Origin: an uncultured Anaerolineales bacterium
Lineage (GTDB): Bacteria; Chloroflexota; Anaerolineae; Aggregatilineales; Aggregatilineaceae
Reading direction: 5' to 3'
Length of the DNA: 43,134 bases
Assembly: GCA_937135955.1 (NCBI GenBank)
Contig: CAKZOB010000071.1
Span: 1 to 43,134, forward strand
This document shows, in pieces, positions 620 through 29,631 of the stretch (the first letter of the stretch is position 1; every line of letters begins with the position of its first letter). The notes beneath the pieces were generated by a model, which had not been told where the DNA came from, searched no databases, and saw only the letters and a list, made by a program, of their open reading frames with translations. Both the position numbers and the translations under genes were made by a program.

Positions 620-1834
620 TTAGATGAACTCCACGAATACGCGGTTAGCTACCAGATAGGCCCGCCGAGTCAGGCGGATGTGTCCGTCGGCGGTCTCTTC
701 GATCAGGCCGTGCCTCTGCAGACGCTGTAGCGCAGGGCCGAATGCTTCGTGGGGGGAAAAACCAAAACGTGCACGAAAGGCGGCGCTGTCAACGCCTTCT
801 TCCAGCAGGCGCAAACCCAGGATCATAGTGTCGGCCATTGCCTCTCGTCCTTCGACGGGCAGGGTCTCGGCGGTGGCGGCTGACAGGGGGAAGGGCAGCG
901 GCTCGCGTTGAGCATTGATGCGGGCGATGTAGGTAGCAGGGTCGGCGATGGTCTCGTAGCGCAACCCATTCGCGTAGCCGTGCGCGCCCGCGCCGAAGCC
1001 CAGGTACGGCTGATTGCGCCAGACGTGTAGATTGTGCTGACAGACGTGACCTGGTCTGGCCCAGTTGCTGATCTCGTAGTGCAGATACCCGGCGGCCTGT
1101 AGTGTATCGGCGGCCCAGTCGTACATGTCGGCGGCCAGGTCAGGGTCGGGCACCGGTATGCGCCCTTGCTGCAACCACGTGTGCAAAGGCGTGCCTTCCT
1201 CGAAGCTGAGGCTATACAGGGACAGGTGATCAGGCTCGCAGCGCAGGGCATGGTGCACGCTGCGTTGCCACATGGGCAGCGTCTGTCCGGGAATGCCGTA
1301 GATCAGGTCGAGGTTGATGCTGGTGAAACCCGCCTGGCGTGCCAGGTGCACGGTATGAGGTACGTCGTCGGGAGTATGACGACGGGCGAACAGGCGCAAC
1401 TCGTTTTCGTTAGCGGACTGCATGCCGATGCTCAGACGACTGACGCCCACACGGCGCAGATGGGCGAAGTAGGCGACGTCGGCATCGCCAGGGTTGACTT
1501 CGAAGGAAATCTCGGCTTCCGGGTCGAGGGAGAAGGCTTCGCGGCACGCCTCGATGATCTGTCCGACAGCCGGAACAGGCAGTTGACTGGGAGTGCCGCC
1601 GCCGAAATAGATCGAGAGCGCGGGAAGCTGGCGCTCTGCAGCCGCTCCTACCAGCCGGATTTCGCGCTGCAGAGCGCGCACATAGGCCGGGATGCGTGCC
1701 TTCATGCCAGCGTAGGTATTGAAGGCACAGTAGGTGCAGCGTGTGCGGCAGAAGGGGATATGCACGTAAAGAGCCAGCCGTTCACGGGAGGCTGTTGTAG
1801 CTGCAAGCGATGGAGCGGCAAGGGTCTCGATCAT
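620..1834 (-). CDS. hemW: HemW-like radical SAM protein (heme chaperone)
   Basis: The 404-residue protein is a radical SAM enzyme of the HemN/HemW family. The 4Fe-4S motif is CRTRCTYCAF, with cysteines 29, 33 and 36 after the YVHIPFC lead-in. The residue two after the last cysteine is Phe rather than Cys, which favours HemW over true oxygen-independent coproporphyrinogen oxidase HemN. GGGTPSQL follows about 60 residues later, and the C-terminal half (NLHVWRNQPYLGFGAGAHGY) is typical of the family. HemW is thought to bind heme and insert it into respiratory proteins. Length is normal. A short GC-rich hairpin (1840-1859) sits just upstream of the ATG and could mask ribosome access. It is the first gene of a minus-strand pair with the lipoprotein. 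Confidence 0.9.
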   Translation of the reverse strand: MIETLAAPSLAATTASRERLALYVHIPFCRTRCTYCAFNTYAGMKARIPAYVRALQREIRLVGAAAERQLPALSIYFGGGTPSQLPVPAVGQIIEACREAFSLDPEAEISFEVNPGDADVAYFAHLRRVGVSRLSIGMQSANENELRLFARRHTPDDVPHTVHLARQAGFTSINLDLIYGIPGQTLPMWQRSVHHALRCEPDHLSLYSLSFEEGTPLHTWLQQGRIPVPDPDLAADMYDWAADTLQAAGYLHYEISNWARPGHVCQHNLHVWRNQPYLGFGAGAHGYANGLRYETIADPATYIARINAQREPLPFPLSAATAETLPVEGREAMADTMILGLRLLEEGVDSAAFRARFGFSPHEAFGPALQRLQRHGLIEETADGHIRLTRRAYLVANRVFVEFI

Positions 1835-1862
1835 GGCGAACCCCGCCCCTCGACGGGGTCAA

Positions 1863-1891
1863 TTGCGAGATAGATCATCCCTCACTATAAT
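1863..1891 (+). promoter_or_regulatory. Promoter of the signalling operon
   Basis: TTGCGA (1863-1868) and a perfect TATAAT (1886-1891) are separated by 17 bp, in the divergent gap between hemW and the kinase gene. Transcription would begin near 1898, leaving a leader of about 50 nt. Based on match to the sigma-70 consensus only. Confidence 0.65.
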
Positions 1892-1950
1892 AGCGAAACA
1901 ACAATGCTCTTGCTGCACATCGTTGCAATGTCTCCTTCGGGGTGCCAGGG

Positions 1951-3855
1951 ATGGTTGATACGCATAAGTTTCCCACCAAACAGCCAGACAAATCCCAGGG
2001 CGAAAGTACATTACAGCCGGGATCGGTGCTGCAGGGACGCTATCGCATCACCGGTGTGATTGGGGTAGGCGGGATGGGGTCGGTCTATCAGGCCCGTGAC
2101 TTGCGCTTCCCGAACGTCACACGCTATGTGGCCGTTAAGGAAATGCTCAATCTCTCCACGGATCAGAGCATCCGCGAGATGACGCTCAAGACGTTCGAGC
2201 GTGAAAGCGATATGTTGGCGTCGCTCAGCCATCCGGCGGTACCCAAGATATACGAGTATTTCCCCAGCAAGACGCGCGCCTACCTGGTGATGGAATACAT
2301 CAACGGGCGCGATCTTGAGATGATCATCAACTCGGCCACAGATTTTTTGCCTGTGGAGACCGTGTTGCGCTGGGCGCTGGACCTGTGCGATGTGCTGGGC
2401 TACCTGCATTCGCAGCAACCGGAACCGATCATCTTCCGCGATGTCAAGCCCTCGAACATCATGGTGGACGAGCACGGGCAAATCCGGCTGGTGGACTTTG
2501 GCATCGCCAAGATATTCCAGGAAGGTCAGAAAGGCACCATGATCGGCACGGAGGGATATTCCGCGCCGGAACAGTACCGTGGGGAAGCCAGTCCGGCTAG
2601 CGATGTATACGGCATTGGGGCCACTCTGCATCATCTGCTCACCCGCCGCGATCCGCGCCTGGAGCCGCCTTTCACCTTTCACGAGCGGCCTATTCGCGAG
2701 GTCAACCCTGCTGTTCCGCCAGAGTTTGAAGCGATCATCATGAAAGCGCTGGAATTCAAGCCAGAGGATCGCTATCCCAACGCGGCGGTGATGAAGCAGG
2801 CGCTGGAACAACTGACGCACCCGGTGGCTCCCGCCATCAACGTCGGAGTGAAAGCAGTTCCCGAAGAGGGCGGGACAACCTGGGTGGGGGCAGAGGTCAA
2901 ACCGCTGTGGGTCTTCGAATGCGAAGACGAGATACGTTCCTCACCGACGGTATATCGCGGCGTGGTCTATGTGGGCGCACACGACAATAACCTCTATGCT
3001 GTCAATGCCAATGACGGCACATTCCGCTGGAAGTATCCTGCTGAGGGACGCATTGTAGCGACACCCGCTGTCGCGGAAGAGGAGAATCTGGTCGTCTTCG
3101 GTTCAACGGACAGCCTCTTCTACGCTGTAGATGTGCGGATGGGGCAGTTGCAGTGGACGGTGCGTGCTCAGGGGCCGGTGCTTTCGACGTGCAGTATTAT
3201 GCATGGGCACGCCTTCTTCGGCAGCGATGACGGCAATCTCTACGCGGTGCGGCTGGCGACGGGCCGCGTGCAGTGGAAGTTCGCCAGCGGTGGGGCGATC
3301 CGGTCGCGCCCGTTGATCGCCGGAGAGCTGATCGTCTTCGGCACGGAGATCGGGGACGTGGTCAGCACCGATCTGTCGGGACGGATGGTGTGGCGATTCC
3401 GGGCCAAGCGGGCAGTGTCCTCGTCTCCGCTGGAGCACGACGGCCTGGTGGTGTTCGGCTCGATGGACTGGCAGGTCTACGCGCTGGACATTGCGCGAGG
3501 CTGGAAGGTGTGGGAATTCCGCACCAGTAAGCCGGTCGTGTCGTCGCCTGCTTACGGCGACGGTAAAATCTATATCGGCTCGGTGGATGGGTCGCTCTAC
3601 GCGCTGGATTTGGCCACAGGTAAAGAACGCTGGCGTTTTGAGACTGAAGGGCAAATCACGTCCTCGCCCGCTTTTGCCAATGGTGCTGTGTATTTTGGCG
3701 GCGTAGATGGCTACGTGTACAGCGTGGATGCCAAGAACGGGCGTTTGCGCTGGAAGTTCAAGACAGGCGGGCCGGTGCCGGGGTCGCCTGCAGTAGTTGA
3801 CGGTGTGGTGTATATTGGTTCCATGGATCATGCGCTCTATGCGCTCAAGGCGTAG
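1951..3855 (+). CDS. Serine/threonine protein kinase with C-terminal PQQ-type beta-propeller
   Basis: An in-frame GTG at 1942 would give 637 residues; the ATG at 1951 is equally possible and is used here. Numbering below counts from the GTG. The N-terminal Hanks-type kinase domain (about 34-293) has the glycine loop GVGGMGSVY (41-49), catalytic Lys66 in VAVKE, the loop FRDVKPSN (Phe replaces the usual His of HRD, Asp167 kept), DFG at 185-187 and APE at 208-210. From about 320 to the end there are some eight repeats of the YAVNANDGTFRWKYPAEG type, i.e. a quinoprotein-like propeller. No transmembrane segment is visible between the domains, so the propeller is probably cytoplasmic and may act as a binding or sensing platform. 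First gene of an operon with PP2C, DnaJ-vWA, FHA and a response regulator. All catalytic residues are present, so an active kinase is expected. Confidence 0.93.
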   Translation: MVDTHKFPTKQPDKSQGESTLQPGSVLQGRYRITGVIGVGGMGSVYQARDLRFPNVTRYVAVKEMLNLSTDQSIREMTLKTFERESDMLASLSHPAVPKIYEYFPSKTRAYLVMEYINGRDLEMIINSATDFLPVETVLRWALDLCDVLGYLHSQQPEPIIFRDVKPSNIMVDEHGQIRLVDFGIAKIFQEGQKGTMIGTEGYSAPEQYRGEASPASDVYGIGATLHHLLTRRDPRLEPPFTFHERPIREVNPAVPPEFEAIIMKALEFKPEDRYPNAAVMKQALEQLTHPVAPAINVGVKAVPEEGGTTWVGAEVKPLWVFECEDEIRSSPTVYRGVVYVGAHDNNLYAVNANDGTFRWKYPAEGRIVATPAVAEEENLVVFGSTDSLFYAVDVRMGQLQWTVRAQGPVLSTCSIMHGHAFFGSDDGNLYAVRLATGRVQWKFASGGAIRSRPLIAGELIVFGTEIGDVVSTDLSGRMVWRFRAKRAVSSSPLEHDGLVVFGSMDWQVYALDIARGWKVWEFRTSKPVVSSPAYGDGKIYIGSVDGSLYALDLATGKERWRFETEGQITSSPAFANGAVYFGGVDGYVYSVDAKNGRLRWKFKTGGPVPGSPAVVDGVVYIGSMDHALYALKA

Positions 3856-27728: not shown

Positions 27729-28646
27729 GTGGCGGAATCTTACGAAATGGTCGAATTGACGGCGGAAAGCGCCGGTGAGCGGCTGGATAAGTACCTGGCT
27801 GCCTGCGTTGACTATCTATCGCGCGCGCAGATTCAGGCGTTGATTCGTCAGGGACTGGTGACCGTCAATGGCGGGCCGGCTAAAGCCTCGCTGCGCCTGG
27901 AAGGGGGTGAGATCATCCGGCTGCTGGTGCCCCCGCTGGAAGTACCCGCCGAACCGGAGCCGGAGACGATTCCTCTGCAGGTGCTTTATGAAGATGAGCA
28001 TGTGGCGGTAGTAGACAAACCGGCGGGGATGGTGGTGCACCCTGCCTTCGGGCATCAATCGGGCACACTGGTCAATGCGGTGCTGGCGCGCTGGCCACAG
28101 ATCGCCGACTTCGCCGAACCGGGCCGCGCAGGCATCGTGCACCGGCTCGACAAAGACACGTCGGGCGTCATCCTGATCGCCAAGACCCCGCTGGCGCTCA
28201 ACAGTCTGCGGGCGCAGTTCAAGGCCCGGCAGGTGCAGAAGCGCTATCTGGCACTGGTGGAGGGCATTCCTGGCACGTCGGAAGGGGTGATCAATGCGCC
28301 GATTAGCCGCGATCCCAAACGCCGCAAGCAGATGGCTGTGCTGCGTGAAGGACGCGAGGCCATCACCGAATTCCGGCTGTTGGAAGTATTCGCTGCTCAC
28401 AGCCTGTTGGCAGTTTGGCCGAAAACGGGCCGGACACATCAGATTCGCGTGCACCTGGCTTTCATCGGTCATCCTGTTGTGGGCGATACCGTGTATGGCA
28501 GGCGCAGGCAGACGTTAAGGCTGTCGCGTCACTTTCTGCACGCCGCTTCTGTGACTTTCACTTTGCCTGGAACAGACACTCAGATCACTGTCGAGGCACC
28601 GCTCCCCGCCACACTACAACAGGTTCTCGACTCGCTCCGGCGCTGA
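27729..28646 (+). CDS. RluD-family 23S rRNA pseudouridine synthase
   Basis: The 305-residue protein starts at GTG 27729 after GGAGCGGGAGAA. An N-terminal S4 RNA-binding domain (about 10-70: GERLDKYLAA, LSRAQIQALIRQGLVTVNG) precedes the RluA-type synthase domain with catalytic Asp141 in HRLDKDTSG, and the later GRTHQIRVHL motif. It isomerises uridine to pseudouridine in ribosomal RNA; RluD itself acts on helix 69 of 23S rRNA, but the site here is inferred only from family. Length is normal. Confidence 0.93.
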   Translation: MAESYEMVELTAESAGERLDKYLAACVDYLSRAQIQALIRQGLVTVNGGPAKASLRLEGGEIIRLLVPPLEVPAEPEPETIPLQVLYEDEHVAVVDKPAGMVVHPAFGHQSGTLVNAVLARWPQIADFAEPGRAGIVHRLDKDTSGVILIAKTPLALNSLRAQFKARQVQKRYLALVEGIPGTSEGVINAPISRDPKRRKQMAVLREGREAITEFRLLEVFAAHSLLAVWPKTGRTHQIRVHLAFIGHPVVGDTVYGRRRQTLRLSRHFLHAASVTFTLPGTDTQITVEAPLPATLQQVLDSLRR

Positions 28647-28704
28647 GTGGCTCAGCTAGCCTGGGACTTTTCATAAGAATTCACTGAGAGTCTCTGCGTC
28701 GGGC

Positions 28705-28734
28705 TTGGCAGGGTCGTAGCAGACGTTCTACGAT
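28705..28734 (+). promoter_or_regulatory. Predicted promoter of the selenoprotein-like gene
   Basis: TTGGCA (28705-28710) and TACGAT (28729-28734) with an 18-bp spacer; start near 28741, leader about 45 nt. Match to consensus only. Confidence 0.45.
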
Positions 28735-28785
28735 TCTCAAGGAGCGATCTCTGGGAGCTGTACAGCTTAACGCGCGGGAGGAGCG

Positions 28786-29262
28786 ATGACAGAAGAGACG
28801 AGCATTCTCGAAGCGCCCGATTTCACTCTAGACGATGTCCACGGTCGCCCCGTGAAGCTGAGCGACTTTCGTGGACAAAAGCATGTGGTGCTGGTCTTCA
28901 ATCGCGGCTTTATGTGACCATACTGCCGCGCGCATATGGCGCAGTTGCGCCAACACTATGACGAGATCAAAGCCCGTCAGGCCGAGGTGCTGATTGTCGG
29001 ACCGGAGAAACCGGAGGTTTTCCGGCGTCATTGGGAGCAACAACAGTTGCCATTCGTCGGCCTGCCCGATCCCGATCATCGCGTTGCCAGATTGTATGGG
29101 CAACAGGTACGCCTGCTCAAGCTGGGACGGATGCCCGCCATGGTCGTGATAGACAAAGAGGGGCGAGTGCATTACCGCCATCATGGCCAATCTATGAAGG
29201 ACATCCCGCCGGTCGAAGATGTGCTGGCAGTGCTCGATGGTCTGAAGCAGGCCAACGAGTGA
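28786..29262 (+). CDS. Predicted selenoprotein: AhpC/TSA-type peroxiredoxin-like protein with UxxC motif
   Basis: The frame starts at ATG 28786 after GGGAGGAG and is interrupted by one TGA (28915-28917, codon 44), then continues open to 29262, giving 158 residues. Both sides belong to one thioredoxin-fold protein: before [24 protein letters not shown] and [10 protein letters not shown]; after it, [44 protein letters not shown] and [15 protein letters not shown]. Relatives have NRGFWCPYC at this site, so TGA replaces the first (peroxidatic) Cys of CPYC, with the resolving Cys47 kept. A hairpin at 28937-28952 fits a bacterial SECIS. Reading as selenocysteine is therefore likelier than a dead gene. 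The function would be thiol peroxidase or disulfide reductase. No selA, selB, selC or selD gene lies in this window. Confidence 0.8.
28915..28917 (+). other. In-frame TGA, probable selenocysteine codon
   Basis: Codon 44 of the gene at 28786-29262, at the peroxidatic position of the CxxC motif (here UPYC). No other stop interrupts the frame. Confidence 0.75.
28937..28952 (+). promoter_or_regulatory. Candidate bacterial SECIS hairpin
   Basis: TGGCGC (28937-28942) pairs with GCGCCA (28947-28952) around an AGTT loop. The loop begins 25 bases after the TGA and has G at its second position; bacterial SECIS models ask for a G among the first loop bases and a loop some 16-37 bases after UGA. It lies in the coding region, as expected in bacteria. 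Confidence 0.6.
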
Positions 29263-29298
29263 GATCGGGCTACACTGAAGCAGGGCTGGCGTAGCTGG

Positions 29299-29331
29299 GC
29301 GAGGTGCGCTTGCACCTCGCACGGGTGCGAG
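29299..29331 (+). other. Two overlapping, mutually exclusive hairpins
   Basis: GCGAGGTGC (29299-29307) pairs with GCACCTCGC (29312-29320); alternatively CTCGCAC (29316-29322) pairs with GTGCGAG (29325-29331). The arms share 29316-29320. No T-tract follows. It lies 36 bp after the selenoprotein-like gene. Confidence 0.5.
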
Positions 29332-29364
29332 CAAAGGTTGACAGCGGCTTTGCTGTGCCCGATG

Positions 29365-29470
29365 ACCCTCATCCCGCAGCGTGGGAAAAGGGGAGCGCTC
29401 GCGCGAGAGACAATAAGTCCCCTCGCCCCGCGACGCAGTCGCGAGGGAGAGGGGTTTCGGGAGTGAGGGG
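29365..29470. repeat. Composite palindromic intergenic repeat
   Basis: Outer arms CCCTCA (29366-29371) and TGAGGG (29464-29469) enclose a strong hairpin in which CCCCTC (29419-29424) pairs with GAGGGG (29449-29454) and CGCGAC (29429-29434) with GTCGCG (29438-29443). The palindrome CTCGCGCGAG lies at 29398-29407. The ends resemble the hairpin at 11602-11644; it looks like a dispersed repeat or MITE-like remnant. Confidence 0.5.
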
Positions 29471-29631
29471 CAGCAGACTGCTGCAAATTGCCTGTCACAT
29501 TTTGCACAGACCCGCTCGCGCGGGGGATTTGACAAGAAGGCGCGTTTAAGGCACCATTAACGCGCTTTGAGATGGATTGACACCCCGATCCGCCGCGAGT
29601 CCGGCGTGATTTCCCCGAACGAGGAGACCCC

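Follow-up and report, generated by a model that had tools for sequence, protein, structure and literature searches.

The gene at 28786–29262 on the forward strand of the analysed window, a 43,134-nucleotide stretch of DNA from an uncultured Anaerolineales bacterium, almost certainly encodes a thioredoxin-fold, peroxiredoxin (Prx)-like selenoprotein in which UGA codon 44 is read as selenocysteine (Sec). It is strongly supported that this is a real selenoprotein gene of an already known family and that its apparent break is the Sec codon. By its PF00578 domain, its motif and its SECIS element, the predicted product can, with strong support, be assigned to the UxxC Prx-like thiol:disulfide oxidoreductase type.

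Reading frame and conservation of the TGA codon

The frame opened at ATG 28786, immediately 3' of the purine-rich GGGAGGAG (28776–28783, forward strand), which was read from the sequence as a likely ribosome-binding site. It ended at the terminal TGA at 29260–29262, and its sole internal stop was the TGA at 28915–28917, as the preliminary description had noted for an otherwise intact gene of 158 codons. Translation with TGA as U yielded 158 residues with a single internal U at position 44, within FNRGFMUPYCRAHM. The second Cys of the motif had been described as kept, and all 86 dereplicated sequences indeed had Cys at position 47 (28924–28926). The Pfam domain AhpC-TSA (PF00578) spanned the TGA, covering residues 9–130 with 99 bits (cut-off 26, E 2.4e-28), and the Redoxin domain also spanned it (87.4 bits, cut-off 26.6). 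ORF calling that stops at TGA returned a 108-aa ORF from the internal ATG of Met51 (28936–29262, forward strand), and a gene caller of this kind would report the selenoprotein gene as a 43-codon fragment followed by this ORF. The upstream gene, named RluD-like by eye, also ended in TGA (28644–28646). Since TGA terminates both this gene and the selenoprotein gene, the genetic code is taken not to be reassigned. A survey of in-frame TGA codons in the window returned eight places with a Cys nearby under a loose filter, and the one at 28915 belonged to the selenoprotein gene.

Codon 44 was TGA in 110 of 110 sequences, which comprised the window, 29 loci from the class and the best 80 of 342 relatives. 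After removal of sequences with at least 95% identity, 86 remained, all with TGA at this codon. The relatives were collected by scanning contigs, and the best 80 of 342 loci were kept; the scan did not select for TGA, because one of its two patterns demands Cys codons at the place of codon 44. With the relatives limited to the best 80 of 342, Cys forms at a greater distance may have been missed. The titles of 18 of these 80 loci named deltaproteobacterial groups, and other titles named GN15, KSB3, Armatimonadetes, Clostridia and Actinobacteria; the conservation of TGA is therefore not confined to one lineage. The closest named relatives in the same set were Anaerolineae and other Chloroflexota assemblies. 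Sequencing error as the source of the TGA could be rejected, and the earlier argument that a chance mutation would be unlikely held up well, since the same codon recurred in all of the sequences read.

Of 396 genomes drawn from the class, 130 had a match at E ≤ 1e-20. With a stricter threshold of E ≤ 2.6e-40, picked after the class-draw results had been seen, 116 genomes remained, and the best match carried at least one internal TGA in 115 of them and none in the remaining genome, G289; here TGA was counted anywhere inside the match, and its exact position was verified for part of the matches. In a draw of 400 genomes of the phylum, which overlaps the class draw, 44 genomes matched at E ≤ 1e-30, and at least one internal TGA, again counted anywhere inside the match, was present in 46 of 47 rows and absent from G289. 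The alignment of homologues proposed in the preliminary description as a check on TGA/TGC/TGT exchange thus gave TGA at codon 44 in 109 of 109 loci and TGC in one further homologue, that of G289 (locus L062), with the motif FNRGLVCPFC. In the hairpin register described below, this single sequence formed only three of six pairs; its codons there were CTG ACT CAA CTT CGG, and the otherwise frozen codons were lost.

The SECIS hairpin and the selenocysteine machinery

A SECIS hairpin, TGGCGC-AGTT-GCGCCA, was located at 28937–28952 on the forward strand with its loop at 28943–28946, as indicated by folding, pair counts and the conservation of loop and codons. The hairpin was separated from the TGA by 19 bases, and its loop followed the TGA by 25 nt. 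Across 30 sequences (the window and 29 class loci), all 180 of 180 cells held standard pairs. Two of the six pairs showed compensatory changes on both sides; these fell in three cells, two with GC to CG and one with GC to AU. Among 500 shuffles, none reached the observed paired percentage, the number of cells changed on both sides or the covariation score, while five reached the number of compensated pairs and 62 the number of further pair types. All six slid registers fell below the true register on paired cells and covariation, and RNAalifold recovered the same stem. When the register was held fixed in the best 80 of 342 relatives, all six pairs formed in 71 and four or five pairs in nine; the loop was AGTT in 75 of these 80. 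The codons under the hairpin were nearly frozen in the 86 dereplicated sequences: Leu54 was TTG in 83 of 83, compared with 220 of 1164 at other Leu codons; Gln53 was CAG in 82 of 82 (389 of 579 elsewhere); and Ala52 was GCG in 83 of 84 (223 of 794 elsewhere). These SECIS letters are conserved across distant phyla.

The available text of PMC13188914 limits bacterial SECIS elements to a loop of 3–9 nt, an upper stem of 4–16 bp, a G as the first or second base of the loop, a distance of 16–37 nt from the UGA and an MFE of at most -7.5 kcal/mol. The present hairpin lay within each of these limits as given there, with a loop of 4 nt, a stem of 6 bp, a spacing of 25 nt and an MFE of -12.0; the second base of its loop was G, followed by U. 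Taken by itself, the window hairpin was no more stable than its shuffles in three of the four stretches folded (z -0.28, -0.27 and -0.13; -0.33 in a separate folding), and it surpassed them in the stretch 28900–28975 (z -3.09). That the lone hairpin rarely surpasses shuffles is attributable to the G+C-rich sequence. The Rfam scan of 28700–29400 returned no match of SECIS type; matches to RsmV (19.7 bits against 100, E 0.002), AgvB and SBWMV1_UPD-PKb were below their gathering scores and were taken as chance.

The bacterium's own genome assembly consisted of 4,278,773 bases in 93 contigs, with a completeness of 100. On contig C29, selA (240–1577; 546.2 bits, cut-off 267.9), selB (1581–3467; 347.7 bits, cut-off 242.25) and tRNA-Sec (3700–3797; 67.6 bits, gathering score 47) were adjacent in a row, and ARAGORN assigned the anticodon tca to the tRNA. 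A match to selD over the cut-off of 125 bits was not found in this assembly; the best match had 67.7 bits, on C24, and the second-best had 50 bits, on C73, and was HypE-like by eye. The search for the Sec machinery that had been suggested earlier was therefore positive for selA, selB and tRNA-Sec, and for selD it was negative in the assembly, although selD was present in G232, a genome of the same genus, at C4:82168–83103. The gene adjacent to selD in G232 matched contig C61 of the own assembly from base 274 onward. In C61:1–273 no recognisable selD start was found, and one 30-base block resembled an intergenic stretch of G232. It is likely that selD was lost to an assembly gap.

In the class draw, selD exceeded the cut-off in 325 of 396 genomes; in many of the listed rows, selD carried an in-frame TGA of its own. 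Within the same draw, 108 of the 116 genomes that carried a close homologue had selA, compared with 212 of the 280 others (Fisher p 3.6e-5). Seven of the eight homologue-bearing genomes without selA had selB over the cut-off, and in seven selD matched strongly (E 1.3e-67 or better); each of the eight had at least one of these two genes, and all were incomplete or fragmented assemblies. The Sec trait was common in the class, with selA matches at E ≤ 1e-40 in 320 of 396 genomes. Two selA matches per genome were observed in most of the listed genomes of the g138 genus and in G289, which could represent a split or interrupted selA.

Three readings in which UGA 44 would not be decoded as Sec were weighed against this evidence. 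A decaying pseudogene with a chance nonsense TGA, from which only a truncated piece would be made, for instance from the internal ATG at 28936, would accord with the 108-aa ORF that a gene caller would see and with the lack of the gene at the syntenic place in G232, by which the gene must be dispensable. However, the identical TGA in all 109 related loci (29 from the class and the best 80 of 342 relatives), the intact frame after it, the frozen hairpin codons and the compensatory changes make such decay highly improbable. Still more improbable is a reassignment of TGA to an ordinary amino acid, which would leave the codon unremarkable. The frame is open under any code that reads TGA as a residue, but TGA serves as the stop of this gene and of the RluD-like gene before it, the residue always stands where a CxxC motif has its Cys, and the genome has a tRNA-Sec whose anticodon is tca. 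Slightly more weight, although still very little, may be given to a strain that has selA, selB and tRNA-Sec but lacks selD, in which no selenophosphate would be made and UGA would act as a stop. This would explain why no selD exceeded the cut-off; against it stand the division of the assembly into 93 contigs, the end of C61 only 273 bases before the gene that adjoins selD in G232, and the retention of selA, selB and tRNA-Sec and of two more redoxin genes that carry a TGA and a hairpin. That the gene encodes a selenoprotein is regarded as almost certain.

Active-site register, fold and family assignment

The preliminary description had placed the TGA at the peroxidatic Cys, and the alignments did not bear this out. 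In four phmmer alignments, the residue opposite Sec44 was the Thr or Ser of the T/SxxC motif, and the peroxidatic Cys faced Cys47. The 3drn alignment had Ser at the peroxidatic Cys position facing Cys47, and an alignment with the Bcp-like protein and the TxxU peroxiredoxin of the own genome gave the same register for Sec44 and Cys47. By these alignments, Sec44 does not occupy the peroxidatic position but takes the place of Thr in the peroxiredoxin TxxC. Peroxiredoxins follow the pattern PxxxTxxC. Here Arg40 stood in place of its Pro, without exception across the 86 dereplicated sequences. For Sec peroxiredoxins the corresponding pattern in the available text of PMC13188914 is PxxxTxxU. Arg115 was invariant in 30 sequences, yet lay one place off the catalytic Arg of peroxiredoxins in the AhpE alignment.

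The Cys version of the protein was modelled with AlphaFold2 from 30 sequences, giving a mean pLDDT of 89.8. Foldseek comparison against the PDB was led by Bcp/PrxQ and AhpE peroxiredoxins, the closest solved folds, with TM-scores by query of about 0.81–0.87 for the first eight matches; ResA followed from rank 9 (0.71–0.74). Unlike UPYC, the site of Bcp/PrxQ and AhpE is TxxC with a peroxidatic Cys and holds no CxxC pair at that place. ResA/TlpA thiol-disulfide oxidoreductases have CxxC at the same place as UPYC, but their TM-score to the model was lower, and the ResA NCBIfam model gave 51.8 bits against a cut-off of 170.

Among selenoprotein models, PrxU (NCBIfam NF040737, TxxU) shares the fold superfamily and a Sec in the active-site loop; in the present protein, by contrast, Sec takes the position of Thr, and the peroxidatic position is held by Cys. 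Identity as a Sec-peroxiredoxin of this type was ruled out by the Sec44 register and by a PrxU score of 22.3 bits, for which the cut-off is 270. The best NCBIfam match was the SelL-related redox protein (NF040769; E 3.1e-26), and membership was rejected at 92.1 bits against a cut-off of 120. The Prx-like UxxC selenoprotein family has been in print since 2005 (PMC1088965). According to the available text of these sources, it was named 'Prx-like protein' in the Sargasso Sea set (PMC1088965) and 'Prx-like 1' in the GOS set (PMC2398784), and later lists give a Prx-like thiol:disulfide oxidoreductase with PF00578 and UxxC/UxxU (PMC9312934, PMC13188914). The earlier remark that the family has Sec forms in other bacteria agrees with these accounts. 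Syntrophus aciditrophicus appears in the accessible listing of the family (PMC1794560), and a Syntrophus locus (L102) was among the homologues in the best 80 of 342 relatives. With the listed type, as far as the lists describe it, the present gene shares PF00578, a thioredoxin-like UxxC instead of TxxU and a bacterial SECIS after the UGA; no separating feature was found in this comparison of domain, motif and SECIS. The lists give WP_010940744.1 as an example of the family. The earlier reading as a UxxC Prx-like selenoprotein is thus upheld by the multi-phylum TGA, the SECIS covariation, the frozen codons and the presence of selA, selB and tRNA-Sec.

Decoding of UGA by SelB and Sec-tRNA via a hairpin is an established bacterial pathway. 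In the proposed mechanism, SelB with selenocysteyl-tRNA would bind the hairpin 25 nt downstream of the UGA, and codon 44 would be decoded as Sec instead of stop, as the codon, the hairpin and the machinery genes suggest. The product would carry a Sec44-Pro-Tyr-Cys47 redox site arranged like the thioredoxin CxxC. Judging from the motif and the family, Sec44 would most likely act as the nucleophile that attacks a disulfide (or a peroxide); Cys47 would resolve it through a selenenylsulfide, which a cellular reductant would then reduce. The main activity is probably thiol/disulfide exchange rather than peroxidase activity. A selenoprotein that acts mainly as a peroxidase, with hydroperoxide reduction by Sec44, would fit the Bcp/PrxQ and AhpE peroxiredoxins at the top of the fold matches, and several other Sec-containing thioredoxin-fold proteins are peroxidases. 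Arg40 and Sec44 in place of the Pro and Thr of PxxxTxxC, together with the thioredoxin-like UxxC layout, speak against this activity, which is possible but the less likely of the two.

Locus history and meaning for the family

In G232, the flanking genes lay together on contig C42, with 172 bases between the matched pieces, compared with 979 in the window (28547–29525), and no match to the selenoprotein gene was found in that genome at E ≤ 1e-20. Since G232 lacks the gene between matched flanks, the gene was gained or lost within the genus. Pieces of the window at about 29319–29486 matched several other places in G232, and there seems to be a dispersed repeat beside the gene. When the ORFs surrounding the best 80 of 342 relatives were clustered, no neighbour was common to most loci; apart from the gene's own cluster, the largest on the same strand covered 15 of 80. 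A cluster of 63 loci consisted of minus-strand ORFs, many of them overlapping the gene, and was set aside as a probable clustering artefact.

Two further TGA genes were found in the same genome. On C64 (L018:1228–1842, minus strand), a peroxiredoxin with FTFV-U-PTE matched PrxU with 370.1 bits (cut-off 270); it has Sec at the peroxidatic position (TxxU), and its hairpin loop is again AGUU. On C16 (L017:1321–1956, plus strand), a redoxin with U-P-P-C had a hairpin with the loop GUU and, by eye, a lipoprotein-like N-terminus; no NCBIfam model exceeded its cut-off for this protein.

With this gene, a group that has been little described gains a well-supported UxxC selenoprotein. The finding is otherwise of modest interest, and what most deserves attention is that Cys forms are nearly absent. 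As 115 of the 116 close class-draw homologues carried an internal TGA, and protein and SECIS have been kept together across phyla, even to the individual loop letters, it may tentatively be proposed, although this is rather unlikely, that the Sec form is near-obligate and very old in this Prx-like branch and that Cys cannot easily replace Sec. If so, the reason why Sec is required could be tested on this family; and if the scarcity of Cys forms survives unbiased sampling, it would be a good family in which to ask what Sec does beyond Cys.
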